This document shows positions 9,146 through 48,935 of a DNA stretch of 64,000 nucleotides, piece by piece; the first letter of the stretch is position 1; each line of letters opens with the position of its first letter. This DNA is from Hemileia vastatrix (Eukaryota > Basidiomycota > Pucciniomycetes > Pucciniales > Zaghouaniaceae): contig JASXTE010000002.1 in the NCBI GenBank assembly GCA_030280995.1, positions 38,995,183 through 39,059,182 on the forward strand. Reading direction: 5' to 3'. The translations under genes and the position numbers were made by a program. Below the pieces are notes generated by a model that did no database searches, was not told where the DNA came from, and saw nothing but the letters and a program-made list of their open reading frames with translations.

Positions 9146-11310
9146 TTAATTTTTCTTTAACAATTTAAGTTGTTCTGCATTTAAACTAGCCTGAATTTGA
9201 AAACAGTAAAATTCTATAACAACTGCTAAATCTTCCAAATTGACTTTTGTCTCAGTATCAACAAGGGACTGATCTACACCAGACAACTTATAGTAGTATG
9301 TTTCATCTAAAAAGGATTTTGGAAGATCCCCAGAAAAATTTTCTTCAGAATTATCATCTATAGGGAGACTTCTGGTCCCTGCAAAAGGTTGACCACCTTC
9401 CATTCTTTGGGGTTAAGGGACCTTCAATTTCAATCAAAATTTTTCCTGATTGCTGCCTTGGCTGTTTGAGATTTAGAATTTGGAATGTATTTTGAAATTG
9501 ACCCCCTTTCAAGTCCATTTAAACATTGAACCAAACCTGTACTGCTCCATGCAGTTGGACGTTTAATCTACTCCCATCTTGACTTTCCTCAGTATCAGAG
9601 TGAATACAGATATCTTTGAATAATCTAGCCATTTCAGGGACCAAAAAAGATGAAGCCATGTTTATTTTTCCATCATGCAACTATAAAAATATTATATTTA
9701 GTCTCAATAACTTTTGAAAAGCTATAAAATGAACATTCTTACCTCTCTCTTCTTTTAAACATTTGAACCTGCACTTTTTTCAACTTCATCTTTTCAAGCT
9801 TTTGAGCTTAAGATGGTTTATCTTTTGCAATATCAGCAAATTTTTTAGACTTCCAAGATATCCACATCTCTAGGATGCTGAAAACTGCTTCATCTTTAGC
9901 ACCTTCATCTGAGCCTGAAAAGTCTATCAAATGCTTCCCATGATAGCAGGCCTTCCATCCAAGAACAATATGAGTGATTATGGTAGTGTTCCACTCTCCA
10001 TTCATACTTTATCCCCAAATATAGAAAAAACTTCTTATACAAGTTTGGGCCAATTGTGCTTCAGCTTGAAGTTTCCATTTTTTATTAATCTTCTGGCCAG
10101 GAGGTAAAGCATAGTTGGTAGTTGGAATGGATTTTGGATTTTTGAAGGTTGAAACAAGTTTTTGGGTTTTGGCTTTAATGACTAACTATCATTGAGCTGG
10201 GGTTTATTTTGTATGTGGCTTATCTTGAATTGCTTTAATCATCCTCTCCCCCTCAATTTGGGAAACGTGCCATTGATTGAATATCACATTGGAAGGAGGA
10301 TCATGAATTTTATGAGTAGCTGGGTCAATTTCTAGGAGGAGTCTAGTAAAAGAAAAAATGGAGCAACCCAATTGGAGAGGAGGCAGAAGGAATATGTGAT
10401 TTAGAAGCCAAATTGGAAGTTTTCTTTTTTACAGCAATTTCAGTCTTTCTCTTCTTGGAGGTGTGTTCTTGATGCTTGTGAAGTTGGATATATGACCTAG
10501 GATCCCAGCCAGCTGTACCTGAAATGAGCCATATAAAGATTAAAAAATATATACAAAAATAATGAATTTTTCAAAAATACCACACTCTGAAGAATCATCA
10601 TCACTAGTGAAAAATTCTAAAAACTCTCTTTCATTAACAGGTTTTTCTGTTTCTGAAAAAGATTAAATGTGATTATCTGTACTTTTTCCATAGAAAAAAA
10701 TCAATCAATTAAAAATACTAACCTGTCACCACAAAAATGTTTTCAAAAAGTTATAAGTTTATGTTAATTTCAATTAAAAAATTCAAACATTAATTTTATT
10801 TACTATTAGTATTTTCACTGGGTTCCTTATCACTGGGTCTAGGTTGAGTGTCTGGTACATGGTGAGGATTGGAGGGGGGGGTGATAGACCTGGTTTTTGG
10901 TGGTGGTGGTGGTAGACCTTGTTTTGGTGGTGGTGGAACTGATGTTAGTAGTGGACCTGGTGGTAAAGGTGGTGGTAAAGTTGATTGATAATATGGGGAT
11001 AGAGGAGGAGGAGGAGGAGGAGAAGTTTGAGGGGTGAATGATGATTGTTGGAGTTGTGTTGGTGGTGGTGGATATGAAGAAGCAGTATGTGATGGGCCAG
11101 GGGATTTTTGTGGAAAAGGAGATTCAGATCTAGTAAAAGGTGAATTAATAGGATGATCAAAATAGAATGTAATTAAGAATTATTTTCAGAAGGGTATGTG
11201 TGTTGATAAAGGCTTGTTTTATGACTGTATTGGTGCTGCAGGTGCTCTCTAATTTTGGATTTACATGATTTAGAGTCTAGTGACTCAGGGTCATCCTGAG
11301 AATCAGTCAT
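9146..11310 (-). pseudogene. Gene B: decayed multi-exon gene with proline-rich region
   Basis: The best start is ATG at 11310-11308 (MTDSQDDPES...). After a frameshift comes a proline-rich stretch (about 11150-10800) with runs of four to six Pro and little else. An exon (about 10660-10600, acidic, FTSDDDSSEC) is bounded by a TTTTTCAG acceptor and a GTATTT donor. The next exon follows CATTTCAG at about 10520 and carries a Lys/Arg cluster (SKKRKTE, KKK) that could be a nuclear signal. Further frames at 9808-10005 and 9146-9403 are open, but many are separated by stops and shifts. I recognise no family. It lies tail-to-head behind gene A on the same strand, 0.6 kb away. Confidence 0.5.
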
Positions 11311-11939
11311 AACAGCTTTTTTTCTTTTCAATGTTTGAAAATTAGAAATATAAGAATAAAATTGACATAATTTACCTAATAGATTCCATCTTAAATGTAT
11401 TGGCTTTTTATATAATTAAATTAAATGTGGACAGAAGCTTATAAATGGTGGTTGTTGCAAATAAGATTTAAAGAAGGTGTAACAATTCCAACATTTTATT
11501 TTGAGCAAAAATATTTTTCATGCATTATGCATTATAAGTTTGGTTTCACCAAAATGTTCCACCAAAATATTTGAACTGAAATGTGAGAAAATAGAAAGAC
11601 ACAAATTATTTTATCAATTGTTAGCTATCAAATTCAATATTCACCATAAAAAAAAGTAAGTTTCATATACATTCATACACTTTATAATAACATTTAATAT
11701 TCTTAGTTTTTGTAAAATTTAATTTCTACACCATTATTTGTAAAAATAATCAAAAAACTTCATTAAACACAATGAAAAAGTGAATAAATAATATAGTGAT
11801 AAATTCTTAAAAAAATTTAAAGAAAGTGTATTTTATGCAGCCAACTGAGTCTCATATTTTTGAACAATGGTTTCAATGTTCCAATTGACATAAATTAATT
11901 TCAAGAACAAATTAATAAATCTAATTACAAAGTCAGTTG

Positions 11940-14900
11940 TGGCTTTCTAGATCTTTTAGCAGATGTTTTGATCCATGGTATTTCCCCTTCTCTTTTATCA
12001 ATGAACCATTTCTCTATAAAGTCATGTAAAATAGATTTGGAGGTGTTCTCCAGATAAAGAGAGACTGTAATTTAAAATGGTTTCTGACATAGTGAGTTAA
12101 CTATGGCATCAACAATGAGAGCATGGTTCCTGGGCCATGCAACATGGTGCTGATGTGAACTACTTTCCATCAACAGGTTAGTTACCTCAATCAACTTTCC
12201 AAAAGTGTATTGAGTTTCCCTTTTAGCATCACTTGAGCTTAGGAAGAGTCCCCTAACACCAGCAGCAAAAATGTAAGCAAGGTGGGAAAAAATTACCTTT
12301 GACCTTGAAGTAGAAAGAATAGGTCCTGATCCTGCTCTAGCTGAGCTTTCTTGCACTGTAGAACCAGAAGCTACTTGATCTTGCAGGAAACCTTCACAAT
12401 ATGAATAATTTTTTAAGAGTGTTAGACATTAAACCATGTAAATATTTTTCTATATAAGTTGTCAAGATGATTCACAGAAATAGTCAGTGAGTTATGGTCT
12501 GAAGTTGATCTGATTGCTGATACATTGACCTTTTGCTTATACATCATCTTGTCAATGTCCTGAATGCTTTTGAGAACACTTTCTTTATTCACATTTTATT
12601 TTGATACTTCTCTTCCAGATGAGTCAAGTGCATTTCCAGAAAGTTGATTTGATTCCATGATTAAGCTTCCCAATCACGCTTACTAGATTTGGATTGAAGA
12701 ACAATGGAAGAAAGGTTGACAAATAAGCTGGTAACATTGAAAGACCTCTTCTTCAAAATCTTCATGTAAAAGATGTCCTTTATGTTCGAAAATTCAAATG
12801 CAGATGGTTGGAGGAAAGAAGGGGCTATGGAATTGCTAGGCCAGATCCATAAAATAAAAGTGAAAAATAAGAAAAAAAATTACAAAGTGTAGTGAACTCA
12901 CTGAGCCACTCTCCTACAGTAGAAGAGGATGACTTGAATTTGAGTTTGATATTTCTTAAATCCATTGGAAACTTAGCTTAAAGAGAAGATTGTTGATTGA
13001 GGATTTCATACTAGCAAAATGCCAGGTTTCTCCAAGACTTGTTGGGTAACCTTGCTTCATATAATCTACAAATTTCAGTGATTTTTTCTCTGAATTCTGG
13101 AAAAATAAACTGTTAGATCACTCAAAGGGGGAATGTAGTTGTCACTTTCTTTAGTAGAAGTAGAGGTTGATTCAAGGAAAGGGGGAGCTGGAGAGGGCCT
13201 TAACTGAGTCTGTGAACCTGAGGTTGGTTTGAGTATGGAGGTAGACTGAAAAGGTTGGACTGGAGTAGGACCAGGGGCTAAAGGTGGAGAAGCATCAGGG
13301 ACATAAGTATTGACATAATGGAGAGTTCTGGTGGTAAAAACTAGGGTTTTTGACTTAGAGAGTAGAACAGTGGTATCTTTTACACTTGGAGCCAAGGTTT
13401 ATTTTGGTGGTAGGGATGTGGAAGTAACATTTAAAGGAGCTGAAGTAGATAAATATGGGGCTTGTGAAGTGGTATTAGGGGAAGCAGTTGACAGGGTGGG
13501 CAGATGAGGCTTAGAAAGAGCAGGGGCAGCAGGGATAGGGATGATTTTTTCAGACACAACTTTGGATGTTGAAGGGGCTGACTATGGGGAGGCAGGGTTG
13601 GAGGTTATTTTGGTGAATGATTTCTTTGTCAGTTTATTCTTTTTTGGAGCAGGGTTGAAGGTTTCATCTTCAGAATTAGTATTTATATTATATTTAGAGG
13701 CTGCCACAGCTGATTTTCTCTTTTTATGCCTAGAGGGTTGATAATCAGTGGTGAGGTCAATGATAACCATTTTGTCTTCTGGAGGAAGATGAGACCCAGA
13801 ACTAACAGATGAGGGAAAAAATTAGTTTTAAAAAATTGTAATGAAAAAAGATGAAAAAACTGACCATCTTTCTGCTCTTGGAAAAAATCCAAAATATCCT
13901 GCACCTTCTTCTTAGCTGAATCTGAAAGTAAATTTTCATTTAAGAGTGATTCAACACCACTTTGAAAATTAGTGTACTTTGAGATTAACTCCTCAGAAGA
14001 AATTTTATACACCTCATTTTTCAAGATATGGCCTGTAGACTGTGGTTTACTTTTTTGGGCTTCCTGAGAAAGAGGTAAATCATCTATCAAAAACAATCAG
14101 CTTCATTTTGAAAGAATGATGGAATAGGTTCTGACCCAATGTGTCAGATTCAGAGTTTAATGCATCACCTGACTCCAAAATTTTTAATAATTGTTGAGGA
14201 GCAACAAGTAAAGCTTCTACATCCAAAAAATGTATAAAATAAATTTTTAATAGTCACCATGCAATATGGGGGGGCAGACTTGCTAGAAAGTCTGCAACCT
14301 TGAACCCAGATTCATATTTAATTGAGCACATAATGAGGTAGAGATTAAACACCCAACAATCAAGCTTGGAACCTCTCTGAAATAAACTCAAAGACAATTT
14401 GAATACTTATTGAAGTACAGTTGATCATTATTGAAAAAAGTCTTGTAATCTGACTTACTCTAATTATAAAATGAATATTGATATGAGTGAAGTTCATAAC
14501 ATTAACAGACTTTAAAATGCATAAGATTTCTTAAATAATGTGCCTCTGCTTTATTAATTCATATGTAATAGTAAATTTCTCATGTAAATAAAATCAAAAG
14601 CTTTTTTACATCTTAACATAAGTTTGTGGAGCTATCAATATATGGAGAAGTTACTTAATATCATAATAGGTTTTTTAGGAGAAAATATGTAGTTTAGTGA
14701 TATTTTTATTGGATTTCATCATTAAAAGTTTTGTAAATATATATATTTATTCTAATATTATGATCAGGAATTATCAATTTTTTCAAGCTTTAAAATATTT
14801 TTGAAAGCTAAAAATTTCTTTTAAATATTATTAAAATACATTAATTTAGAGGCATCATTTAAATAATTATTAAATATCATTTTTTAATAAAGTTAAAAAA

Positions 14901-17900
14901 TGATATGGTCACTATTATTTTTAAATAATAAATTTCCTTCTTCTTCAATAAATCAAAATATTAAGGGTGGAATTTTATTAAGATGAACCATATGTCTAAT
15001 AATTATTACACTAGAATATGGGTTTTTTTTAGTTTCAGGATATAGCCCATTCCCGCTCCTTGTTATGTTATATATATATATATATATATATTATTTACTT
15101 TATTTTGAAATTCTTGTTCCATGTTTTTTCCTTCAATTTCTGGACCATATCATGTTCTTCCCCTATTAAGTCTTCCCCCTTATGCTCGTTTTAATTCTCT
15201 ATTACCTTTTATATTTCATCTTCACACTTTTTGGTTGCCTCTCCACACCTCTCCATCCCGCCTCTTTTGAACTTACTCCTTTCACTCCCTTCTCCACCTG
15301 CTTTTACTCCCTTTAGAGTGAAAGAGGTAAGGTAGAAATTAAAAGGGAGCAGTTTGAAAGTGTGGGGGGTGGATTGTATTGAAGAGCAATAGAGTCAGGG
15401 TGAGAAGAAAAGAGATGGGGAAGATAGAAAAAGAGGTGGTGTGAGATAAAAAAGGTTAGAAAAGGGGTGGAAGTGGTAGTGAGTGGGGTATGGTGGTGTG
15501 TACTGGGAGCCCAAAGGGTGTGGTGGGGTAATGTGGCAATCAGAAGGGGTGGGGTGGGGTATAAAGAGGAAAAAAAAGAGTTAGAAGGGTCAAGATTGGA
15601 GATAAAGGGGTGAAATTGGCTGAAAAGTGAAAGGGAAGAGGATGGAGTGTGAGCAAAACAGGTGAGGAAGGGTGAGAAGAGTAAAATTTCAGGTTTGAAG
15701 GTATCAAAATTAAAACAAAGTTAAAAGGATGATGAGAAAAAGGAAAAGGGAGGGAAAAGAAATGAAACAGGTGAAGAGTCAGAGAAGTATGTACAAAGGG
15801 GTCAAGTTAGTATAAAAAATGGTGGTGAAAAACAGAAGATGAAATCTATCTTTCAGCCAAGGGATAGAGTCCACCCTGCAATAATGTGATGTTTTGCTTC
15901 CACTTATAAAAAAAATACTTAAACCTGTTGTATGGCTATTTTAAATCCTTAATCAATTAAAAATACACATATATTGGCTGTTTTTAATAAATACATGTAT
16001 TCAAAGTAGAAGAATTTTAAAAATGTAAAAACTAGCCATAAAGCCCTAGTACATTTTATGGAATAATTGTGATAGTTATACATAAGATAAAAAATGAATT
16101 TTACAGGTTAATTTTAGAAAAAAATTGAAAAATGGAAAAAAGCGCCTATGATATTAAGAATAAAAAACTTATTTTCTATATTATGAGATGAAATTATTTA
16201 TCCTTTAATTTAATATTAAATGCTGTTGTTGAGATGAAAAATAGCTATGGCTTACCTTATAGAGTGAAGATGAGACTTGAAAAAGAAATTAATTGCTATA
16301 TTTTACCTTTTATATTTTTTTGTTTGTTCTATCATTAATTTAAATATCTGAATAATTATAATTAATAAGTAAAAATTTAAGAAAATTAAATAATAAAGAT
16401 GTTCCAATATATTTTATTATATTTATTTGGTAAATTAATAAGCCCATTGAGCCCTTTTCATTGCTTAAATTTTTCACACAAAGAATTATATACAATTTTA
16501 TAAACATAAAAATCTTAGTTGCAATGGGACTTGGATTGAGCTCCCAATGAGATTCTGTTCCTCACCACTGTTTAAGATAAATTAATCTGTGAGAATTTTA
16601 TTCAAAATTTGATTTTAAATTCCTTAATTCATGCCCAGGTTTATCTTTTTATTTAAAAGATTTATACCAAATACTAGGAAATGCTGAACATAAATTAAAT
16701 TTTTGAATTATTCTGATTTTTGTTTTAATAATAAATTTTTTAAGTTTCTTCTTAATTATTATAATGTGAGTTTTCTCATATGATAGATTAAAAAGCTTCT
16801 AAATCTCAATGCTTTTATCTACAATGCACATGAAAAGACAGAAATTTTCCTTTTTTTATTTAAACTAAATTTGAGGAATATTATTTTTGTATTTATTAAA
16901 CATTATTTAGCTCCTTTTGATTATCAAAATCTTTTTTCTTAGATTTTTACTTCAAATTTTATAGAAAACCTCAAGTTATGAATTCAGATAGTTTAAAAAT
17001 GTGAAAAAAAAAATTTCATCAATTTGAGCTTGAAGATGATTTCAACCTACAGCCTTAAATTGTTCTTTTGAAATTAAATTAAAATTTCAAAACCTATTCC
17101 ACTAATATTCATTTTTATAAAAATTAATTTATTTAAATATATATTCTTAATAAGGAGGATAACTTAAAAGATTCATGAATTTTTACTGTTCAATAAAATC
17201 TTAAATTATATTTATTTTGTATATTTGCTAATAAAGAACATATTTTTCTTTTTTTTTGAATATTGGTGTTAAAATCATATTACTAACAAAGAATCAATAA
17301 ATTATTAATCTGTATTTTTCTACTTGAATATAATGTTTGCATTTTGTATTGTAAATTAACATGGTCAATACTCTTGTTCTTGAAAAAAAGAAGGTATTTC
17401 TGCACTACTATACTCAATTTAAAGGACAAAAAGAAAAAATTGAAATATTTCATGCTTCTATTTAAAATATTTTATTAACTTTTAATTAATAAAAATTAAA
17501 TTATTTTAATATTAGCCTTTTCTATGAGTATCACTATAAATATATAATTTTTCTCATTTCAAACTATACTCTCATATATTGATTCTTCTATAAATATAAT
17601 CATGAATTTATACATAAAAATTCACTTTAATACATAATATAGAGTCTGTGAAAAATAGTAGAACTTGATATTTAAATTCAAAAACTGTCATAGTGCATGA
17701 TAGAAATCTGTTTAGTTTGTGCTGTGTAACCCAGGTGAAAAATATTGATATCTTCAATTATTGAATTCAAGAAAAATAAAGCATTCAGCTTACATTTCCA
17801 AAGAATATTTGGTGTTTTATATTAATTTTCCCATTAATATTTTGTATTCCTTTTAATTAAATTATTTTAAGAGCTAAATTTCACTGAGTAGAAGTTAATT

Positions 17901-19059
17901 TTTGTGACTTGATCAAATTAATTTGAATAATGAAAATCAACCTTAAGAATATTTATGGATTTGATAAAAATTTCTTCATAATTATGAAAAGTATTGGATT
18001 TACTAAAAATCTAACATAAAATGCTTTTTATTTTGAGCACATTTTATCCTAAGAAAGACCAAAATTACTTTACTTACTGTTTGTATCATTTTCTTGCATT
18101 TTTGAATTTTATAAAAAAATATTAGACTTTACCACTTGAAGAATTTTTTGTTTGTTTAACATATATAATCCCATTCTTCAATTTTTATTTAGTTAGAGAA
18201 AGGAAAAATGAGGGTACTTCATCATGTCCATCTTTTGAAAATGAAATCTTACTGCATTTAATTTTACATTTTTGTGTCTTTTATACAGAACTTTAGAATA
18301 TAATATGAGATAGGAACTATTGCTTATTTTTTTAGTTATATAATTAATTTTTATAAAAAAAAATTATTGCATAAGCTTAAAATTCAGAAAAAAAAATTTA
18401 GAATAATTCAGTTTACATGGTCTCTATAAAAAAATGAAAGATTTGTATTATGAAAAAATGGATGTTTTCTACATTAAGAAGTCATGAAATATTTTTTTAA
18501 TTTTTTGAAAAACATGTAGTATATTTTTTAGAATGATTAAAATTTATGCTTAATAAAAAAGAATTAAATTTCATGTATTTTTATTCATAAATTTTAATTC
18601 AAAAAGATTGTCTGATTACATTTCTTAAAAAAGTATTTTTATTGAGCAGATTTCAAAAGCTTTTATATTCTTATTTCCATTCAGATTTGAATAGTTTTTC
18701 ATATTGCTTTCAATAAAAAATCACCCTTGTTTTGTGAATATTTCAAGCTTATTTCAGAGAGATTTCAGTGTGAGCTCAGTGTAAGTTCATTCTGAGTTCC
18801 ATCTGACTTCAATTTGAAGACTTGCTAGCAATTTCCCCCCAAATATTGCATGGTGAGTGGCTCTAAATTCTGTTAAAAATTAAATCCACTCACCAGATGT
18901 CACATTCACTTGAAGATCCACATCTTTAGTTGATAACAGAGAATGGTATGAATAATTAGAACTTGATTTTTGCTGAGGTAGCTCTACATCTGGACAAAAG
19001 GGTGAGCTAAGAGGTGCCTGACTAGGGGTAGAGGCTGTCAATGGAGCTAAAGTTGTCAT
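11940..19059 (-). pseudogene. Gene A: decayed multi-exon gene, unknown family
   Basis: Exon 1 is 18894-19059 (ATG at 19059, MTTLAPLTAS...). It ends at a GTGAGT donor; the acceptor GTAG is at 14217, and exon 2 continues in frame (EALLVAPQQLL). The intron is 4677 bp because element 2 sits in it; without the element it would be 73 nt. Exon 2 has a one-base shift near 14090. A probable 63-nt intron (13802-13864) follows. The next exon holds a basic patch (RHKKRK, PAPKKNK) and a long Pro/Ser/Thr-rich stretch with TAG and TAA stops (13570-13130). Later segments (about 13090-12910, 12840-12680, 12356-12072) are open in parts, ending near 11940. Low-complexity and basic regions suggest a nuclear or DNA-binding role, but no domain is recognised. 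Confidence 0.55.
14255..18855 (-). mobile_element. CACCACGC element 2, inside intron 1 of gene A
   Basis: Same family as element 1 in inverted orientation. The left end is CACCATGCAATATGGGG with palindrome arms GCAGACTTGCT / AGAAAGTCTGC. The right end finishes GCATGGTG. The 3-bp duplication is AGT (14252-14254 and 18856-18858). Length 4601 bp. No coding capacity was found. The centre switches from C/T-rich to G/A-rich on the plus strand near 15315, and a (TA)n run lies near 15070. It interrupts an intron without touching its GTGAGT or GTAG borders. Confidence 0.85.
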
Positions 19060-19495
19060 TTATGTTATGTGTTGATGTTAGTTTAAATGAAGTGGCTAAG
19101 AAAAGAAAAGTTTTGTGTATGAATAAAGTTGACATCTCAACTTAAATGAAAAATTTTGATGCAAAAATAATATTGCATATTTTATAGACACAACTAAGTG
19201 AAGGATACATTACATTTATTCAACTCATGTAGAAAAGTGATGCATCATTCCTCCTTAAATGGGCCTAATACATATTCAAGTCCATCATAGCATCTTAATG
19301 CTTTGTTGGAATACTAAGTACATAATTTGTTTTCACAATGTCCTCATGAGATGAGGTAAAAAAATTCCTGATGTCACCAGGACATGGTAAATTTTCATGT
19401 AGATGAGTATTGACACACTGCTTCATCTTTTCTGTGTGGAAAGAATTAAAGTAGATGTGTTAAACTGGTGGAATGACTAATATACTTACTACTTT
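19060..19495. promoter_or_regulatory. Upstream region of gene A
   Basis: Non-coding. It separates the gene A start codon from the palindrome array, so it would include the gene A promoter. No clear TATA box or other motif is assigned. Confidence 0.3.
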
Positions 19496-20910
19496 GCATA
19501 CATGAGGGGAAATTTTGCCTTATTTATGCAGAATTGTAAGTACCTTGTGTTTTATAAGTATTTAATGAACTATTTGTAATATTTATTTTGCATACATGAG
19601 GAGACATATTGCCTCATGTATGTAATTTTTGAGGAATATATCATTGCAATTATATGGTTTCAGTGGTCCAAATTCTTACTTGAGGCAAGAAGTAGCCTCA
19701 AGTATGGATGTGGAAAACTGGGTGTTTGGAAAAACAAATATATACTTTACAAAACTCTTTAATGAAATTGCATACATGAGGCGAAATTTTGCCTCATGTA
19801 TGCAATGTAAAAATAAAATATAAGTTATTTTTTTAATTTTTACATGTGAGCACTGGGCTCACACACATGCATACATGAGGCAACATTTTGCCTCATGTAT
19901 GCTTGTAATTTACCTACTTGCACCCTAAAAGGCAGGGGGTTCACAAGAATGCATATATGAGGCAACATATTGCCGCATATATGCATGCAGATCCACTTCT
20001 TGAGTGCAAAAAATAACATTATCAATGAAAATATACTTCAAAAATGCATACATGAGGCAACATGTTACCTCATGTATGCATGCTTGTATAATTATTTTTG
20101 TGACACTAATTTAATTTTTTTATTGTTTAATATTACTATGTAATACTGAAAAAATAGATATTACACTTTTTTTTCAACCTAAGGACTAGTCTTCACTTGC
20201 AAGCATACATGAGGTGACATGTTGCCTCATGTATGCATGCTTGAAGTTTTAATTATTTATACCTTTTTTATTCCAAATTCGGTGGTGTTTCACTTGCATG
20301 CATACATGTGGAAACATGTTTCCTCATGTATTCATGCAAGCAAAGCCATTGCCAGGCTTTTTTTACAAAAATGAGGTAAGTTTCAATTTAACATTGCATA
20401 TATGAGGGGACATGTTGCCTCATGTATGCAGTATCATTTTTAATCTATTATGTATATATATATTTTTATTTTTCCAATCACTAAGTCACTTACATGCATA
20501 CATGAGGCCACTTGTTACCTCATTTGTGCATGTAAAAAACTGAGTTTTTTAAATTTTATCCTTATTTTAAAAAATAGTTTTCATGCATGAGGCAAAATGT
20601 TACTTCATTTATGCAATTTTAATTGATCATTTCTTCATTGCATACATGAGGTGACATGTCACCTCATGTATGCAATATTTATTTTTCATTTCAAAAAAAC
20701 TTGTTACTGACTTAAGGCTACATGATGCCCCAAGTATTAAATGTAATAATATTCATTTTTAATTTTCATTTTGTTGATGATGTGTCTCACAATTTTTCAT
20801 ACATGAGGCAACATGTTGCCTCATGTATGCATGTAAGTTTTTTACTTGCTTACTGAAAAGAGGAGAAAGCATGCATACATGAGGCAAAATGTTTCACCTT
20901 GTATGAATGC
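19496..20910. repeat. Array of 34-bp palindromes with unrelated spacers
   Basis: The consensus unit is GCATACATGAGGCAACA followed by its own reverse complement. Copies start at 19496, 19590, 19770, 19869, 19951, 20046, 20203, 20300, 20396, 20496, 20581, 20640, 20797 and 20873. Weaker forms sit near 19677 and 20709. Start-to-start distances are mostly 76-100 bp; spacers are about 25-65 bp where no copy is missing, AT-rich and not alike. Several copies extend outward with CATGC. Copies 20640, 19951 and 20300 carry paired changes in both arms that keep self-complementarity. The array lies between divergent decayed genes (A leftward, helicase rightward). Function unknown; candidates are a protein-binding array of a transposon end, a shared promoter, or transcribed hairpins. 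Confidence 0.9.
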
Positions 20911-22154
20911 TTTTGAGCCTATTTATTTTCCAATTGCCTTTAGTTTGCTAATTTTTTCCAACTTTTTGTGATAATTAAATGCAGAATCTTTGCCATCTGC
21001 TTTTTATTACTGCATTTATATTTTATTTATATTTCTTGAATGTGTGATTTGTTAAATTAACATAATTTTTTTTTTGAAAAAGCTCAAGTAACTTATTTAT
21101 AAGAATAGTTGTAAGTAAAACATGATAGTACATGAAAATAATGAAATTAGTCATAATATAGATCTTGAATGATGTGAGTGACATTTTGAAATTCCTGAGT
21201 ATGGCCCAGCACGTTCCTGAAGGGGGCTGTTTAGGGGACCCCTGGACACTATTTTACATATTCACTAGTTGTGCAAGTGTTTTTTCAATATACTAAGCTG
21301 AATTTTTATTTTTACTTTTATGTCTGTACTGGATGAAAAATTTATTGAATTGAAATGTGGTTTCAGTTTTTGCAATGTTTTTGAGAAAAATACATGGTAG
21401 AATTATAACTTTATATTTTTTATAAAAAATTCATTATTTTGATGGATTTAAATGATCTTGTGAACTTTTCAGCACACTTTTGAGTCTATAAAGTATAATT
21501 TGTGGTTTTTATTTATAAGATCCCTCATGGTAAATTACAAGCTCTGTAAAATATCAGATTTTTCATATTCATTGGCTGTGATACACAGATATTTTAACCC
21601 ATTTCTGTGAAGGGTGTGAAAACAGAAACTTTTTAATTAAAGTCATACTTTTAATCTTCATGATCCTTCCTTCTCATTGTCATTCTAGGTAATGGAAGAA
21701 TAAAAAAATACTGGATGTATTTTTGTTTTCATAGACACTTTTTTTCAGTCTAAAAATTTTTTTATCCACTTGAAAAGGTGGAACATTTGGTATTTACTTG
21801 CCTTGTAATTTTTCTCAATCTATCCCTTAAATTTGGGAGATAAACTTCATTTGTATATTTAACAAGTGCAGTTTAAATTATTCATGAATAAAAAAATCTA
21901 TAATTTTTCACATTTTCCATGGCTAATGTGGACCTCTTGGGATTTAAATCTATGTAAAAATTTTAATTCAGCTAATATTACTTGCTGAAATTTTTTCTGG
22001 ACCTACAGAGTTTGACAAAACCTTAATCACCATGGAGAATTTAGTTTTTATTTAGACCATGTGACTACTTAGCCATGAAATTTTTCTATCTTGTATAAAT
22101 AACTACTTCTTCCTGAATTATCTTCTTTTCTCTAAAACTTTATTTCTATCAAAG
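20911..22154. other. AT-rich non-coding stretch before the helicase
   Basis: No supported gene. It lies between the palindrome array and the helicase start, so it would hold the helicase promoter. A short palindrome AGGGGACCCCT is at about 21233. Nothing else stands out. Confidence 0.4.
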
Positions 22155-24410
22155 ATGGAATCATCTTCTACTACTTCTCCCATCTGCATTGGCTTGCTTC
22201 AATCTTACATTTCTGATTTCAATAGCTCCTCAGGTATTATTGAACAGCCAGTATCACTTTATCTCTCTCATAAAAAACATACTATCAGGGTTAAGGCACA
22301 TTCACCTTATCTTACCATTGGTAAACTGTGCCTTAAAAATTCCCAAATACTTTAAGATCTACTTGGTCTAACTGTCTATCAAACTTTAGTGGCTCCTGTT
22401 GGGGGTTCAGCTTCCAGGTAAGGATTCTTCCCCTTTATGGGTTGAAGCTACATTTTTACCCCAACAGTTTACTGACTGTCCCTTAAAAATTAATATTTTG
22501 ATTTTCTGTCTTTCTAATTTCTTAGTCACCATCCCCCAAGCACATGCATCACTCTCCAAAAATAGTTATTCTTCTATCTGAATATAACCCATCAATTTAC
22601 TTGCACTTTCCTGTACAAGATTTATTCAATCAAAAAAATTAACTACCATCTATCTCCCCCAATTCCTTACTTCCTATTGGACCTTATCATCCTATACACA
22701 AAATTAATTCTCAAAATTCAAATACAACACTACTACCACATCAAAAGTGTTCCCTTTCTTTTATTCTCTCTCAAGAATACTACACACAAACTTATCTATG
22801 GCTGCAGACAAGGGAGAATATCTGGGAAAGCTCTTTGAGCAGAAAACTCATCCAGAAGCCTCCTTCAAAATTAGTTCTACTAGCAGATGAAAGGGGTCTA
22901 GGAAAGACAGTGACCATGATTGCATTGGTTTTCAAAAACTTAGACAAAGCCCCTCAATTTTCCTAACTTTTTGATGCACATTCAAGCACTCCAAGGCTAA
23001 ACACAACCTTAATAATTGTCCCTGAAAGCTTAATTCAGCAATGGAAAGACAAACTAATCTGGAATTTATAAGCTGATTTCAATCTCAAAATCACTATCTA
23101 CAATGGGAGAGGACAGAACCAAACTTTCAACAGCTTTCTTTATTCAAATTTAGTTCTTACTAGCTACAATCTGGTGATAAATGACTTGGAAGATATCAAT
23201 GCAAGGAAGGGGTTATGTCATGTTTTCTGGTTTTGTGTTATTCTAGATGAAGCCCACTTAGTTGAAAATTTTCCTATTTTTGGTTTTTCACTGCTAATTA
23301 TAATTTATTTTCAAGCCACATTTGTGAATCAAGAAGCAAGTCCTCAACAGAAGTCCTTTGCTTGAAGACCTCTCAACAGCTGTGCATTACTGGAACACCA
23401 ATTCAAAATAGCTTTCAAGATTTGTATGCAATCTTCAGGTTTCTTTGACTTTCTCCATTCAACACTCCTTCTGAGTTGAATTGGCATGTGGAACAGCATT
23501 CAAAAGAAGAAAATAACACAAAGGTCATAAATTCTATTCAGGATACCCTGGGTGATGTAATGATCAGATGATTCCAGACAATCAGTTGGCCTAGACATGA
23601 TAAATGATCATCTCACTCTATCTATACATGAAAATACAATATTCATCCAGCTTACTGAGGATCTTTTGTGTATTTACTCTGAAAGGCATTCAAAAACATT
23701 TCAATCTCTTGGAATTGGCAGTAGTGACAATCTTCATTCAAATTATCAATCAACTTTAGAAAAATTGACTGGTTTGTGAAAATTTTGTACTCATCCCAAA
23801 ATGCCATATGACTCAGAGATCAAATCTTCTGAGCATATAAATCAGAGGGATAGTCCAAAATTGGTTCACCATCTTAAAACATTTCTAAATTTAATTTCAC
23901 AGGTTTCAAATGTGAACTGCATTATTTTCTCAGAGTGGACAACTTCACTGAAGTTGTAGGTTTTGTGTAAATTAATACCAGATCTCTAAATGCATGTCAT
24001 TTCTGTTAAAACTGATATTTCTTCAAAAAAAATAGGATTTAATTTGCACATGATAATTAAAAAATACATCACATTCAATTTGATGGCATCACCAATGAAA
24101 GTAGACTCAAGAATGTTCTCAAGTCATTTTCACTTATCAAAACTGGTGTAATCCTGAGAAATATCAAAACAGGTAGAGAAGTATTGAATATCACTATAGC
24201 ATCTCATGTGTTCTTAATGTTAAGTCCTTATATTTATAGCAAGAAACTTTATTTGTAAGATTTTTTACTGTAGGAGCCAGCTTGGAATCCAACTTCTGAG
24301 AAGCAGGCAATTGGCCATGTTAATTGCATTGGCCAAGGAAAAGAAGTTTATTTATTCATGTATATAGTTGAATCTACCATTGAGGAAAATATTTCATGTG
24401 TAATCACCAT
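22155..24410 (+). pseudogene. SNF2-family (Rad5/HLTF-like) helicase, decayed
   Basis: SNF2 ATPases remodel nucleosomes or act in DNA repair. The frame starts at ATG 22155. About 600 bp in comes an LLPHQ-type lead-in, then motif I (ADERGLGKT, about 22883-22912), motif Ia (TLIIVP...QQW), motif II (ILDEAH, 23246-23257), motif III region (ITGTPIQNSFQDLYAI, about 23386), an IIFSEWT-like strand of the second lobe (about 23910) and a closing IGQ motif (about 24330) where the usual Arg before Ile is Cys. Several stops and frameshifts separate these parts, so it is not functional. Its size and motif order fit a full-length copy. It points away from the palindrome array. Confidence 0.85.
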
Positions 24411-24774: not shown

Positions 24775-25296
24775 ATGGAGGTGATTATACCCTTCCATTT
24801 TAATAATGTAGAAACATTTCACATTTATAGATTAAGGGAAAATTACTTTCAAAAATTTGACCAAAATGTAAGTCTCTCATTATTTTTTTTCATAATTTGT
24901 TCACCTCTTGTAGTAGCCTCTACTTTGATTCCTCCCACAGGCTTTAATATAAAACATGCTTTTAGCAAAATTATTTCACAAATTGGTGCTCCAAGCTCTA
25001 AGGCTGCTTCCACCATTTCAGTTATTGACTTCATGAAACTTGTCTTGATGAAAAGTCAAAAGCTGGACAGCTTCCCACCTCCACCAGACACTGCTAAATT
25101 ATCAACTCTTTCAAATGAACTAGTTTCTACTCATTTATCTCCACCCCCTGAAAATATGTACAACCTTCAAGATTTTTCTTCATCACCATCTGGATGCCAA
25201 AAAACTATTCCCCTGATTTTTCACCATACTTTGAATCAAGATGCCATTTATGCTAAGATTTCCCACTTATGCCTCTCATTAAACATGGAGAAGAGT
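24775..25296 (+). pseudogene. ORF cut by element 3, unknown family
   Basis: A plus-strand frame of about 174 codons (ATG at 24775) ends only because element 3 begins at 25297. The first 45 residues are hydrophobic and AT-driven, so the true start may be later. The rest is Ser/Pro-rich with moderate complexity (LIPPTGFN, PPPPDTAKL). No family recognised. It lies in the same orientation 0.4 kb after the helicase. Its continuation is not evident beyond the element, where mariner-like sequence begins. Confidence 0.35.
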
Positions 25297-26470
25297 CACC
25301 ACTAAATATGGGGGCAGACTTGCTAGCAAGTCTGCAACCTTGAACCCTAATCTATATCTAATTGAGCACACGTTGAGACGGTGATGAAACAATCATGAAG
25401 AAATAGTGAATTTATTTTGAGAACACCTTGAAACTAATTATAACCTTCATTGAACCACAGTTGATTAATAGTTCAAAAAATATTTATACTTGAATTAGAG
25501 GATTTGTTGAAGGGATAAAAAAATAAATGAGCCCCATTATCAATCTAGCCTTGTGGCTTCATAAGATTTTGAAAAATCATAAATTTTTATCATTTTTTGA
25601 ATCTAATGAAACTCTCAGATACTTTGAATTATAAGATATTTCACAAAAATTTAAAGGGTACTCATCCTATGAATATATCCACAAAACATCCAATATTCTA
25701 AGAAATAATTCATTAGGAAATATTTATTAAATTTCTATATTTCATTAAATTTTTATCAGTAAAAAATTGAGAAATAAACGCCTTTTCTCATTATATCAAT
25801 GAATATTATTATTTATTTATCAGTTTTCAGAGCATTTGTGGAAGTTGAAACACTCTTCAAAGTAATTTAACATTAAATTTAGTCAATAGAACAATATGCG
25901 AGATTGATTTACATCCCATATTTATATAAGTTAAAACAGGAAATGGGCCCAATTCTATTAAAAATATAACTTATCATGCTCTTCATTATATCATAAGAAT
26001 AAAAGAACAAATTTTTATGAGAATAAAATCTATGGTTAATGAATATTGAAAAATATTTTTGAGTTTTATTTGGGATGTTTCATGCCATTATGATTTCAAA
26101 GTCTCAAAATATTTTATATAATTTTTGTGCTAACATTGTGTCAAAATACTCCTTACAAGTACGTTCCTTCCTCAAATTAAAAATCTCATTCTTCTCCCAT
26201 CTAAAAGTCTCTCCCTGTTACATTTTATTTAATTCTACCAATTACTGTCCCATCCCAAACCCTTATTCCACCTTCTCCACCCTTAATCATCTCATTACAC
26301 CCCTCCTCACTTATTTTTCTCCCCTTAACACCCTATTTATTCCCCTCTTCACCACTTTCCACCCCAAATTTCTTGATATCACTCCTTTTTCTCCCCTTCT
26401 AACCCCTTTTACTCTATATGAAGAAAAGGGGGTGATTTGTAAAGCCATAGGCGTTGGATGAAAATTGAAA

Positions 26471-26503
26471 GGGTGGGGTGGGGTGGGGGGGGGTGGGGTG
26501 GGG
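26471..26503 (+). repeat. G-run cluster, G-quadruplex type
   Basis: GGGTGGGGTGGGGTGGGGGG is continued by further G-runs spaced by single T. More than four runs of three or more G with one-base loops fit a G-quadruplex motif. It sits at the C/T-to-G/A switch of element 3. Confidence 0.7.
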
Positions 26504-28435
26504 AGTTTCTGAGGTGAAGAGTAAAACAATGGGGGTTGAAAGCGAAAGTATTTTAATTAGTTATAAAAGGATTGGGGTGGAGTTGAGAGAAAAATAGATA
26601 GGGTAGGGTAGTGAGAGGAAAGAAAGGAGTGGTGAGGGATAAGGATGGTAGTGAAAGGGGTTGAGTTGTGTTAAAAGTGAAAATCGAGTAGAGGGGAATA
26701 GTGAGGAGGGCTCAAACATGGATTTTGAATCTTAGAGGGTGTAGCAAATGTATCAGGAGGGCAATAAAAGGGTGGGGGGGTGGTAATAGAATTAACATAA
26801 ATGACAAGGTAGAAAAATTTGTGTTGAGAGATTGAAAAGTTGTCAATTTAGGTAGTTAAAAATGGAGAGTGTGCTTTATTCTTTGGGTGAACATAAGAGT
26901 CCACCCCCTCACTCTACAGCTATATTCTTCAAATAAAAAAAATGATTGATAATTATCTTTTATTGATATTTTTGAACTTAAAAATATAGTTTATACATCT
27001 TTATTTAATATATTTTATTTACAATGAACTTTAAGACTAAAAAAGTAATATAATAAAATAATTGGTAACAAAATACTATTTTGCTTTTTAAAACAAGAAT
27101 TGAAAGTATGCTTCTGATAAGTATACATGATATAATAAATAATAAAATAGGAAATTTGTAGCAAAAAGTTGAAAACAAAAACAAAAAATTTAAAGAAATT
27201 TAAACAATTGAACTTATGTATTTAATGAGTTTATTTTCTTTATTTTTATATTTAATATTAAAATATGTTGGTTAGATTAAAACTACCTTTGAATTAAATT
27301 AAATAATTCAAGTAAATCTTGAAGAAAAGATTTATCTACATATATAGCAATTTAGCTTCATTTCTTGTTTTGTGATTACTATATATAACTGGATAGTTGA
27401 CTGTAATAACTGCAAATTTAAGATACTTTAATAATTTATCTGCCTCAATATATTTACAATAATCTATTTTGTAACAGAAAAATATTTCTGAGTCCTTTCT
27501 TTTACTAGTTTTATTCATTGCAATTACTATATACATTTTTTACAAAAATATTCATCATGTTTTTGGTGGAACTTAGATTGAACTCTCAATGCAATCCTGT
27601 TTCTAAGTGTGGTTCAAGCTAAGTTAAGCCATGTAAAAATTAATACTTTTTTAGAATTTTTATTAAGTATTTTTAAGTATAAAAATAATTATATTTTTAT
27701 TAAATACTTTGAATTTGTGAAAACAAGTACAAATTAAGAATCATTTTGATAAAATATGATATTAAACATAGTTTTAATCTGATCATATATTATTATGATA
27801 TAAGTTCTTTCCATATGGAAGATTAAGAAAATAACTTAAAATTAATTTTGTACAACTATATTATATAAAAAAGGTACTAGCTTTTTTGCTTAGATTTGAA
27901 GTACTTCAAAAAAAATTCTTTAGGTACACATCATATAGAGTCTTCAGAGCATCATATTAATTTTTTAGACTTATATTGGTAAGTTGAAGGGAAGCCTCAC
28001 GGGATAAAATTGGCAGTTTTGTAAAAAAAAATAATTTAATATCTTTTATATCAATAGGGGGTATCAATGTTCAGGGATCCACAATTAGGGATCAGGAATT
28101 TTTTTTCCCGGGATCAGACATTATTAATTGCGGAAGATTCTTATCCACTAGCCCCAGGGCTATTGGATAAGAAATCCACAATAATGCATTATCCCGCCTC
28201 TTATACCCCAATTTCCATTCCTAATTCCTGATCCCAAACTCATCTCATCCATGATGGATTTTTAAGAAAGTCACATGACTTATAATTGCTGATGCCATCC
28301 TTAAGTATTTCCTCACTCTATGCTACTTAATTTTGGTGGCGAACACTTAAGTTTTTTTTCTATCTACACACCCCAACTGCACATTTGGCGGTGAATTCCC
28401 ACTTCCCTCATCACTTAACCCTTCCACCGGCAACA

Positions 28436-29695
28436 ATGAAACACCTCTCTACTAGGAAGCTACTTCACTCAACAATGAATGCTATCACTTTTCTTTTAGT
28501 TCTTTACTATAAATCTGACTCTGATTTGGAAGATGCTTTAGCTTATATGTGTTTTCTTTCCAAAAAGCGTTACATCATCACCAGGGGGCCAAATCTTTAT
28601 CATGATCCCCGATATGATCTGGCCTCCATTCTCAACATTCCTCATTTAAACTTCACACAACTTTTTAGAACTTCTCCCGATTCTTTCTTCAAACTTTATC
28701 AACTCATCTCCGATCATCCTATCTTCCATAACAATTCTCATAACAAACAGCGTAATCCTGCCATCCAACTTGCTGTTGCTCTATGTCGCTTTGGCTCAAA
28801 TGGAAATGGTGCTGCCGTAAGACGTTTGGATAATCTCTTTAACATAGGATATGGTACCGTGATATTATACACCAAGCGCTGTATGATTGCTATCCTTTCC
28901 CTCAAGTCTCAAACTCTTGCTTGGCCAACTCCAGAACAGCGACTTGAATCCTCTCAAGTAATGCAAGCTGAAGGTTTCCCTGGCTGTATAGGTTTTGTTG
29001 ATGGCACAACCATCCCTTTGAGTCAAAAGCCTGCTCATGATGGCAACCAATATTTTGATCGCAAAAAAAGGTTTCTTCAAAATCTTCTCCAAGTTCTCAT
29101 CTTTCACAATCTAACTTTTTATCTTCTTTCTAGATACTCTATTGCCGTTCAACTTGTATGTGATGTCAATAAAAAATTTATTGCTTTTCACAGTGGCTGC
29201 CCTGGATCATGTCAAGACTCTTCCGTCTTCCAAAGAATGAGGATTTCTCAATCCCCTGAATCATACTTTGACGAATCTCAGTACCTCCTTGCAGACTCAG
29301 CATATGCAAGTGGAAAGTACATTATACCTGCTTTCCGTGGTGCAACTTCAGAAAATGACCCCAAAACTAAATTTAATTATCACCTTGCACAATCAAGAGT
29401 ACGAATTGAACATGCTATAGGTATTTTAAAGGGACGATTTTCTAGTCTTCGGGAGCTCAGAATCCAATTTCAATAAAAATTGGAGATCAAAACTGCAAAT
29501 CATTGGATCTTGACTTGCGTAATACTCCACAATATTCTAGCTGATTTAAAGGATGAGTGGAATGATCTTTATGAAGAAGAGGATCCTGAACCACCACTGG
29601 CACTCCCCTCCCTTGATTCACAAATCATTCAATCAACCGGCATACGCCCCATTATAATGCCAATTACTCCTCAACATTTCTCTTCACCCTTTTAA
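28436..29695 (+). pseudogene. PIF/Harbinger DDE transposase, one nonsense codon
   Basis: This is the nuclease that cuts and joins the element. The start is ATG 28436; the open frame upstream of it has no ATG. DDE catalytic residues are visible: Asp in GFVDGTT (about 28998), Asp in LLADSAY (about 29293), Glu in RIEHAIGILKG (about 29405). A 63-nt intron (29071-29133) with GTTTCT donor, CTAAC branch site and TTTCTAG acceptor leaves the frame open if unspliced; splicing joins RKKR to YSIAV as in relatives. A TAA at 29474-29476 breaks the frame about 70 codons before the stop; the frame then continues (TANHWILTCVILHNIL) to 29695. Expected product about 398 residues. The stop falls after the catalytic Glu. 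Confidence 0.88.
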
Positions 29696-29995
29696 TTTTT
29701 AATTTTTATGTTTTCATACTTTCCAAATGTCCTCTTTGTGTACTTTAATCACTTGGTTTTGTATTTTGGTTTCTTGCATATTCATTTTTTTTTTGAATTT
29801 ACGGTGAATATCTTTTTTTTGGATTGCTCATTGGTTTTCTTTCACTTCCTCAACATGAAATCGCATATTTTGTCAGTGATTTTTTTTTTCATTCATCACT
29901 CATATCCTTTTCCTATTCTCCTCAAACATCCCTCAAATATTTTGGTTGCATTTATTTTCTCAACTCAACTCACCAGGTAGGTCATTTTTTTTCTT

Positions 29996-30026
29996 TTTTC
30001 ATGGTTTTTTATTTGCTAATCATGAT

Positions 30027-30057
<31 letters not shown>

Positions 30058-30535
30058 TGCTTTTTTTTTGCTTTTTTTTTGGTTTTTTTGTTTTTTTTGT
30101 AAGTGCTTCTATTATTTTTGTTCTACGGTAAACTAATTTTTGTTTTGCTTTTTTCTCTTTTTTATCTTTTTATTTTTTTGTTTTTTTTTCTCTCCTTCAC
30201 CTCTCTTTATGATCCTCAAGGCCCCCCTTTTTCCCTCTCTTTACCTGTCTCTGACCCCCTTTTTACCCCCTTTTTAGCTGCCTCAAATCCCCCTTTCCCC
30301 CCTCTTTAGGTCCCTCATCACCCCCTTTCCCCTCTTTTTAGGTGCTTCAATACTCCCCCCTTCCCCTCTCTTTATGTCCCTCAAACCCCCCCCTTCACCT
30401 CTCTTTTGGCGCCTCAAACCCCCCCCCCTTCACCTCTCTTTACCCACATCAAACCCCCCCTTTCCCTCTCTTTAGGCGCCTCAAACACCCCCCCTTCCCC
30501 CCCTTCTACTCACTTTACCCCCCTACCTAATCATT
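29996..30535. repeat. T-rich and C-rich minisatellite between Harbinger genes
   Basis: 29996-30185 holds repeated T-runs broken by GC. 30190-30530 repeats a unit of about 35-45 bp of the form CCCTCTCTTTAGGCGCCTCAAA plus a C-run, about eight times. Plus-strand ORFs across it are low-complexity artefacts. Confidence 0.75.
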
Positions 30536-30554
30536 ATATCCTCCTTTAAACAGA

Positions 30555-31130
30555 CACCACGCAATATGGGGGGGGGACTTGCTAGCAAGTCCGCAACTTG
30601 AAGTCAGATGGAAATCAGATGGAACTCACACTGAAGTAATACTGAACTTTCACTTGAAGTATCACACAAATAATAATGGATCTATATTGAAAACATTGTG
30701 AAAGTGTGAGGATAACTGAATGGAAGCCAGAAAAAATCATTCCATGAGTCTACTCAATGCAAAGTATTTTTTGAAGCAACTTATTTAAATAATACTTTAT
30801 TAAATTAAGTTTATCAATAAAAATTGATTGACAATATTGCAATTCTTAAATACAATAATTTTATTAAAAAATTTCAGATTAAATATAAAAAAAGTCAGTG
30901 ACTTTTTCTATTACTTACAACTGTTTTTACAGAATTGAAAACTATGTTTCAGCTAATATTTTATGGAAGTGAACTCTGTTCTTCGCCCGAAGAACAGAGT
31001 TCATCCTCCTATTTTCACACTCTGTTTGCACCAATCTCCATCCCTTTCAATTCTATCAACACATGCTTGTCTTCTCTCCCCATGCCTTTCGCTATCCTCC
31101 CAGCCCCATTGTATGTATAATACAGAAAAT
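30555..31130 (+). mobile_element. Truncated CACCACGC copy inside the Harbinger
   Basis: It starts with CACCACGCAATATGGGG and the full palindrome, followed by element 1-like end sequence (AACTTGAAGTCAGATGG). After about 400 bp it holds the family's internal hairpin (16-bp stem TGAACTCTGTTCTTCG / CGAAGAACAGAGTTCA at 30969-31002) and a short C/T-rich part. No right end is found, so it is a one-ended or deleted copy. Confidence 0.7.
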
Positions 31131-31191
31131 AATTGTAAAATTTATGTACAAATAAATATGAACACATGAAGTGTGAAAGAAATAAAAGATA

Positions 31192-32589
31192 CTAGTCAAC
31201 AAAAAATTTTATTAAACGTTCTATTTCTTCAACAGATTTGTTTGCTTTAATGCATTTGATCAAGAAATCTTTCTTTTTAGAACTTTCTTGGAGATCATGC
31301 TTATACTTCATCTGTTCCATTAAGTTTTGATGCTCGAGTGTTTTTTCCTTATTTTTGGATTTTTCAATACTAAGAGTTAACTCAAACTTCTTCTCCTCCA
31401 AATCTTGGGCCCTACCATCCTTCTGTAAAGAGAGCTCAAACTTCTTCTCCTCCAAATCTTGGATCCGATCATCCTTCCGTAAGGAGAGCTCATACTTCCT
31501 CTCTTCCAAATCTTGTACTCTGTCATCCCTCCTTAAAGAGAGCTCGTATTTCTTCTTTTCAAAGCTCAGTGTCTCTTTAGCAATTTCCACTTGTTCTAGA
31601 GTGAGAATAAAAATTAACATAAAGTAGAAGAAAAGCAGAGTAAAGTAATAAGAGGTATGATATCACTTACCAGCATCACGTTTCTCTAAAAACTGTTCCA
31701 TCGAAGAAAAAGGTGTTTGTGATGAAGTATCACTTTTTTGTCTTCTTTGGGAGAGGAAATTTAGACTAGTTGAAGCCCTTCTCTTTTTGTTCAACGTAGC
31801 ATTTTCCTCCTCATCATTGTCACTAGCTTCAGACTCAGTTGATTGAGGATCCTGGGTTTGTTCATCAGCCTTTTAAGAAATAAGAAAAATATAAGTAAAT
31901 AAAAAAATAGAATTGATAAGATAAAAGAAACAGACCTGAGTTAGATTGGGTTGGGTTAAATCGCCAATAGGATCAATAGCAAAGCTATCTAGATTCGTAG
32001 AATTTAGAAGAGGGGAGGCTTGAGTGGAGGAAGAGGATGGGAAAAGATTTGCTTTGACATCATGTTCGGAGATAGGATCTTCTCCATCCAACATGTTTAC
32101 AGGATTAACATCGGCTCGCTCTCCAAAAATTGCATCCATCTCTTTAAAGTAAGGACATAAAGAATCAAGTTTATTGTCTATGGATTTTATACCCTTAGTT
32201 ATATCAATGTCAGTAACCCCAAAACCAGTGGAAGATGAAAGAGCCTTTGCCTTCTTGTATTTTGCTCGATAATGCTTGAAGCGTTCAGACATCTGTTTAG
32301 GCAAAAGATCAATCCTTCCCTTGGTCTTATTGCGTAATTCATTTGCCATTAGAAGATAGCCATTAACTTTTGATGTGGGGGGCCGTCCTACTTTAGTGGC
32401 ATACTCAGTACCAAAACAAGAATCATAGTTAGATTTGGTTTTCAGCCAGTTGATAAGAATGAGATGATCATCTTTTTTTAATTGAACAGTCTTTGATTTC
32501 TTGGCTGAGCGGGGAAAAGAGGAAGTAGTGGGAATTGAAGAACAACTGGGTGATAGCTGCCTTTGAGAAGATCTAGGATGACGAGGCAT
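31192..32589 (-). CDS. Myb/SANT-like DNA-binding partner of the Harbinger transposase
   Basis: In PIF/Harbinger elements this second protein binds DNA and brings the transposase to the nucleus and ends. Start ATG 32589 (MPRHPRSS). Exons 31936-32589, 31671-31869 and 31192-31595, with introns of 66 nt (GTCTGT...AAAAG) and 75 nt (GTAAGT...CTCTAG), give an uninterrupted 418-residue frame. Residues about 30-140 hold the Myb/SANT-like domain (LKKDDHLILINWL, SKVNGYLLMANEL, RFKHYRAKYKKAK). The tail is a predicted coiled coil made of an 18-residue unit repeated about four times (KKxELSLxxDxRxQDLEE). The gene converges on the transposase. Unlike the transposase it has no nonsense codon. Confidence 0.85.
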
Positions 32590-48652: not shown

Positions 48653-48935
48653 AGTGGTTTTGGTGGTGTTTTATCAGATACTGTTAGTATAATGTCATTA
48701 ATTAATATAGCTGGTTCCTATTAATCAGCTTTGTAATATGCTTTATGAATTCAATGTATGTTTTTAGACACAAAAGTTATATCTATTGCCTGTTTCAAAT
48801 TATTCAAATAGCACTATATGGAGAACTCAAATTGGTCCTAATTATTCAACTATGAGCTATGTGTCATAATGAAAAAAATTTCCACCTGTATTCCAACACA
48901 GGTTTTACTCAAATTAATTTTTCTTCCCCCTCCGT
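48653..48935. other. Short spacer between element 4 and retroelement C
   Basis: No recognisable feature. Confidence 0.3.

Follow-up and report, generated by a model that had tools for sequence, protein, structure and literature searches.

The 64,000-nucleotide stretch of Hemileia vastatrix DNA analysed here (hereafter the window) carries, at 19496–20906, an array of 15 copies of a 34-bp palindrome (starts 19496, 19590, 19674, 19770, 19869, 19951, 20046, 20203, 20300, 20396, 20496, 20581, 20640, 20797 and 20873; no strand assigned), flanked by decayed genes that point away from each other, with the orphan gene A on the minus strand and an SNF2 helicase and gene B on the plus strand, all of one transposon. 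This bears out the initial annotation, which had recognized at least fourteen palindromes between divergent decayed genes. Searching in a 42-nt register likewise gave 15 unit copies (between 19494 and 20912), and two further stretches, near 19361 and 20722, match the core only, with 5 mismatches. The description of the units as perfect or near-perfect holds for a minority, that is, one perfect palindrome (20640–20673) and four copies with a single mismatched pair (starts 19770, 19869, 20046 and 20797); the other 10 of the 15 have 2–6 of 17 pairs mismatched, so that the range per copy is 0–6. Start-to-start distances are 59–157 bp rather than the 76–100 bp previously given. Within three mismatches of the quoted 34-mer, the window contains six copies and 100 shuffled versions contain none. 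The spacers are indeed unrelated to one another, as had been claimed: 0 of 11 had a BLAST match to another spacer of the same array and Tandem Repeats Finder returned no entry at 19496–20906, so the array is not a tandem satellite (that is, a head-to-tail unit with alignable spacers). A CRISPR-like array is ruled out as well, given that the host sequence is a eukaryotic transposon and the unit a full palindrome.

The window copy of this transposon is an old, broken member of a coding subfamily (D, below) that was split by insertions; outside the array it is 84–85% identical to two other members, K2 and K3. At the gene A end it begins with a terminal inverted repeat (8301–8339, plus strand; 6 mismatches to the family end), followed by the decayed gene A region (8340–14252, minus strand), whose pieces A1 (near 14156) to A6 (near 9463) are 53–84% identical to a longer copy in L013. 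A stretch of about 4.6 kb without counterpart in K2 (14253–18887), probably a later insertion, precedes the point at which element sequence resumes (18888–19116, 83% to K2). On the other side of the array lie the decayed SNF2 helicase (22065–24255, plus strand; pieces near 22065–23245, 23314–23956 and 24016–24255), in which the open reading frame (ORF) at 22643–22966 scores 22.5 bits against SNF2-rel_dom (below the cut-off of 24.9), and the first part of gene B, an orphan protein (24883–25290, plus strand), cut by a nested insertion. The later nested DNA (25304–48643), with the related inverted sequences TAAATATGGGG and CCCCATATT at its junctions, takes the position of what in the long copy L028 is the remainder of gene B and the larger part of the transposase gene; the core part of the transposase is lost, and of the transposase-side end a 259-bp remnant (48653–48911, plus strand) survives, the terminal repeat itself being lost.

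Several other repeats share the window. One long repeat is present three times (2639–7215, 25310–34726 and 44373–48651), and two of these copies, in opposite orientation, border the nested DNA of the array element. A PIF/Harbinger-like element at 28053–32949, pieces of which are 96–98% identical in the array-bearing copy K7, contains a DDE_Tnp_4 transposase ORF (28331–29476, 75.6 bits) and a Myb/SANT-like ORF (31873–32658, 17 bits, below cut-off). At 57497–62006 on the minus strand, ORFs resemble, by eye, those of a Ty3-type retroelement, and a related stretch occurs in copy K5 (90%).

The array forms the noncoding middle part of a dispersed and abundant CACTA/EnSpm-type transposon. The family was defined from 20 kb around each of ten unit clusters on contig C2; in all ten, the sequence beside the cluster is common to most of the others, and the alignments show common ends. 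These ends are 39-bp inverted repeats (CACCAGG..CCTGGTG; CACCAGGTCAAAAGTTAGACGACTTGCAGTCAAGTGGTT) of the CAC..GTG kind that characterizes CACTA/EnSpm elements, and 3-bp target duplications flank 12 of the 13 copies having both ends, including the first six (AAT, AAT, CAG, GTG, TGC and ATG) and six of seven mini-elements, the seventh of which fits 4 bp. Inverted ends and target duplications together rule out a Helitron. L028 contains a Transposase_21 (tnp2-type) domain (L028:7068–8066; 35.3 bits, cut-off 28.6). In the study by Kojima, EnSpm families of rust fungi have CAC..GTG ends, 3-bp target duplications and an EnSpm-like transposase, a description that our family fits, and C(2)C and H(3–4)H motifs between the catalytic residues are named as a CACTA/EnSpm trait (PMC12730594). 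The main text of that study singles out families for their TET/JBP genes and contains no SNF2 and one, unrelated, mention of a palindrome (PMC12730594).

Across the 747.6-Mb assembly (791 contigs), the unit was found at ≤3 mismatches 4637 times in forward and 4624 times in reverse orientation (control pattern, 0 and 0), these being largely the same sites because the pattern almost equals its reverse complement; the element end was found 534 + 541 times (1,075 matches, ~538 pairs; control, 0). On the basis of 8.9 matches per array in 17 loci, we estimate about 520 arrays, a figure that, like the end-pair count, is rough. Genome-wide scattering, which the initial annotation had named as counting against its reading if free of any association with a gene set, is real but lies inside one transposon family, and the expectation that copies always lie next to the helicase and gene A families failed, many copies being without the genes. 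On C2, a listed unit lies within about 7.3 kb of 14 of the 17 exact ends; of the remaining three, L035 has an array, L036 has a worn remnant and L034 has none in the 4 kb read, which match the part of K1 outside the array. All nine transposase-fragment matches on C2, C19 and C26 (among 150 matches listed) have a unit within 20 kb, the query having come from an array-bearing copy and unit positions on C26 being covered to 3.1 Mb. Because units were recognized by their similarity, worn ones are missing from all these counts.

The array occupies the middle of the 8-kb copies and comes to about 0.5–0.6 kb from the ends only in mini-elements; it is not subterminal (that is, its repeats do not adjoin the terminal repeats). 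No repeated motif or repeat family adjoins the element ends, and no half-site (≤1 mismatch) lies beyond the array neighbourhood in the copies examined, which lends no support to a direct link between array and ends.

In long copies, the array separates gene A from a divergent block that consists of the SNF2 helicase, gene B and transposase. The order SNF2 helicase, orphan gene B and Transposase_21 gene near the element end was read in L028 (the piece taken leaves the array side outside), in which the helicase scores 85.5 and 78.6 bits against SNF2-rel_dom (cut-off 24.9) and 26.1 bits for the helicase C-terminal domain (cut-off 23.5); gene A, also an orphan, runs the opposite way on the other array side in K2 and in the window. 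Pieces of genes A and B have no significant Pfam domain, and Pfam searches of these and of the window ORFs added nothing beyond the SNF2 and transposase domains. Homologues comprised two distant proteins for one transposase exon and one protein 94% identical to a gene A exon, from a 1.2-kb contig; the structure model of this last protein (P0003) is worthless (pLDDT 42.3, pTM 0.25). When K2 and the window were compared for the codon phase of gene A, a third-position excess appeared around L013:3782–4380 only, with flat or mixed values otherwise; protein-level constraint on gene A is thus only weakly indicated, one compared partner being a decayed copy.

The copies can be grouped into subfamilies A (K1, K6 and the mini-elements), B (K0, K4, K5 and K8), C (K7 and K9) and the coding subfamily D (K2, K3, L028 and the window), which outside the array are 74–88% identical where aligned (pairs compared, with alignments touching the array left out; a separate set of alignments agrees closely). 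Through all four the unit stays constant: the 34-letter consensus GCATACATGAGGCGACATGTCGCCTCATGTATGC, a perfect palindrome with two CpGs, is identical in A, B, C and D (63, 40, 19 and 26 units, respectively, taken within 6 mismatches, which leaves out a second unit type of B), and the window's own consensus (13 units) deviates at one CpG position. The core common to the units, ATGAGGNNACATGTNNCCTCAT, is symmetric with variable 2-bp gaps; in subfamily B, the second unit type (CAAAAGATGAGGC..) has this same core within other symmetric outer arms (CAAAAG..CTTTTG). The spacers, by comparison, have been replaced between subfamilies. Spacers of A matched B, C and D in 2, 2 and 0 of 69 cases; those of B matched A, C and D in 3, 3 and 0 of 61 (and the window in 2); those of C matched A, B and D in 4, 2 and 0 of 23; those of D matched A, B and C in 0, 0 and 0 of 22; and those of the window matched A, B, C and D in 1, 1, 0 and 1 of 11. 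Matches to other copies of the same subfamily were found for 68 of 69 spacers in A, 61 of 61 in B, 23 of 23 in C and 18 of 22 in D. Spacer turnover around an unchanged unit is the pattern expected from selection on the unit. Choosing units by similarity favours such a result; however, other unit types are nearly absent (the second one of B excepted), which argues that this choice does not account for everything.

The positions of the unit that change fastest are its CpGs (29% versus 2.8% at other positions, 167 units), which fits decay by cytosine methylation. As elements and window are equally CpG-poor (observed/expected 0.01–0.18 in the elements and 0.11 in the whole window), such decay is not peculiar to the array, and the window value suggests strong methylation-linked decay in this genome. 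Among the 167 units, transitions affect the inner CpG bases (positions 14 and 21) in 31–36% and the outer ones (positions 13 and 22) in 14%.

The array is also retained where the genes are not. With tblastn, no helicase motor, gene B or transposase core was found in subfamilies A, B and C; the final portion of gene A persists in A and in three of the four B copies, and no remnant of it was detected in K5 (a piece without the far end) or in C. All seven mini-elements sampled with both ends (1.75–2.16 kb) keep the array and have lost the genes, being made up of the two ends, the array (6–11 units, accounting for 33–50% of the element) and the flank closest to it; end position or similarity was the sole basis for selecting five of them, and the other two (L032 and L033) were taken because units lay nearby. 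An eighth, in L001, has 11 units, its last few bases being cut off. Given that the deletion points are common to all five mini-elements compared with K1, they go back to a single event that spread, and array retention there counts as a single case. Among the best 40 of 1110 left and 1116 right candidate ends, ten pairs lie 1.75–3.3 kb apart and none closer, and each of the six that were read contains an array. That stripped-down copies keep the array suggests that the element needs the array itself to spread.

We consider it probable that the array serves as a cis-acting internal binding array for a dimeric, element-encoded protein that opens chromatin and/or aids transposition. A DNA-binding protein of the element (the product of gene A or gene B, or the N terminus of the transposase) would bind each palindrome as a dimer, presumably through the half-site ATGAGGNNACAT; many bound dimers would load the array and cooperate with the element's SNF2 motor, and the loaded array would open the chromatin of the element and/or help to build the transposition complex. 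The central CpG pair may render binding sensitive to host methylation. An array acting in cis would explain its retention in copies without genes, and the symmetric core, the free two-base gaps, the constancy of the unit and this retention all fit a dimer site of that kind; with an SNF2 gene in the element, a role in chromatin is plausible. Of the roles that the initial annotation had offered, a transposase- or regulator-binding array is thus the best supported, whereas a pure bidirectional promoter is weakened and hairpin RNA production unsupported.

Among the points that count against a binding array are the lack of a significant Pfam domain in genes A and B and the extension of the symmetry past the core, in excess of what a simple dimer site needs. 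Over 209 cores (≤5 mismatches), the arms mirror each other at positions 12–18 from the centre (z 5.1–11.6) and at positions 19, 20, 23 and 24 (z 3.6–4.9), with mixed values beyond and −4.4 at position 35; z here compares real partners with partners shuffled inside the same element and is inflated by the kinship of copies. Whole arrays can be symmetric too. The unit spacings of K9 read 116, 92, 114, 90, 94, 90, 114, 92 and 116, and the best self-inverted alignments, whose values are raised by the units being palindromes themselves, span 1027 bp at 92% in K9, 994 bp at 90% in K7, 969 bp at 87% in K4, 957 bp at 87% in K8 and 1181 bp at 83% in K1, with just 64–69% identity, often over short lengths, in K3, K2, the window and L029. 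Our guess is that conversion between arms and between halves produced both kinds of symmetry. A bolder version of the binding array, to which we give tentative credence at most, would accommodate them: the array would be a third obligatory cis element besides the two ends, at which methylation-sensitive dimers and the SNF2 motor free the element from silencing and start transposition, its palindromes within palindromes being kept symmetric by copying between arms and halves.

Alternatively, the array could be mainly a bidirectional promoter or enhancer for gene A and the helicase–transposase block, carried in gene-less copies by descent. Its position would suit this: in K2, the helicase starts about 1.2 kb from the array, and on the other side the first piece of gene A is about 0.7 kb away (a 1.17-kb insertion left out). 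Yet subfamilies A, B and C, gene-less and diverging from one another by >20% where compared, retain the same consensus, and the mini-elements kept the array while losing nearly everything else; because the array persists in copies without working genes, a purely promoter-like role seems unlikely. Still less probable, in our view, is that DNA mechanics alone (slippage, inverted duplication and arm-to-arm conversion) homogenize the units without any function. The varying number of units among mini copies (6–11), the mutual relatedness of spacers inside arrays of subfamilies A, B and C (15 of 16 in K0, for example), in which these differ from the window array, the match of arms beyond the core and the whole-array inverted repeats would all follow from such processes, but homogenization should also spread the spacers and let the unit drift, the opposite of what is seen, and in the window non-CpG unit positions are 5.6% off consensus (12 units, chosen by similarity) against about 15% for the flanks compared with K2 and K3. 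That the array yields hairpin or double-stranded RNA, either feeding host small-RNA silencing or serving as its decoy, is very improbable: strong inverted-repeat units, and whole arrays that form inverted repeats of about 1 kb in several copies, would lend themselves to it, but mismatched pairs have no G:T bias (224 G:T versus 252 A:C in 222 units, p = 0.22) and Rfam gave no match.

For a binding array of this kind, the TNPA repeats and VANC motif arrays described below are precedents, and further known systems bear comparison. Baculovirus homologous regions are clusters of imperfect ~30-bp palindromes bound by a dimeric protein; they are similar palindrome clusters but viral, and the exact unit pattern has 0 matches in viral contigs, as it has in bacterial and archaeal contigs. 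VANDAL transposons of Arabidopsis are Mutator-like, whereas the transposase of L028 is Transposase_21, so the array is not a VANC target array in a VANDAL element. VANC motif arrays likewise lie in noncoding parts of the transposon, evolve by repeat formation and are read by an element-encoded anti-silencing protein; however, the VANC motif (YAGTATTAY) is short, non-palindromic and in one orientation, and its targets differ among related elements, whereas the present unit is a 34-bp palindrome that stays constant (PMC5735166). Plant CACTA elements (Spm/En and soybean Tgmt*) share with our family the CACTA type, the 3-bp target duplication and a noncoding repeat cluster, with TNPA repeats being cis-determinants of Spm/En excision bound by an element protein and Tgmt* repeats (2 and 12) being able to form palindromes, as the array units are (PMC2613891). 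Unlike the subterminal TNPA repeats, the array is internal, between divergent genes and kilobases from the ends in long copies, and its units are loopless 34-bp palindromes that lie 59–157 bp apart in the window. Titles and abstract openings of open-licence papers yielded no description of such an array.

If the binding array is as we propose, a CACTA-type transposon can rely on protein sites arrayed in its interior instead of at its ends, and such sites can persist unaltered even as all the sequence between them is exchanged. This family amounts to a natural experiment, with coding copies, gene-less subfamilies and small deletion derivatives that share one unit, beside a sister family without the array in the parts read. 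The cis needs of transposons, and the way in which chromatin factors encoded by a transposon recognize its copies, thereby become directly testable, which is relevant to research on CACTA elements and on how transposons counter silencing.

The sister family (L010:1010–3118; L037, L038 and L039) also belongs to EnSpm and likewise encodes an SNF2 helicase, located upstream of its transposase. The helicase-to-transposase order is the same, at 29–31% identity in the helicase and 40% in a transposase exon. In three copies, the 3.8–6.4 kb read ahead of the helicase showed no palindrome array, so the proposed mechanism would not be general to SNF2-bearing EnSpm elements. All three copies do have one conserved 24–26-bp palindrome, GGGGGTATTGCTAGCAATACCCCT, about 1.4 kb upstream of the helicase, and, speculatively, a lone regulatory palindrome could have been the starting point of the array.
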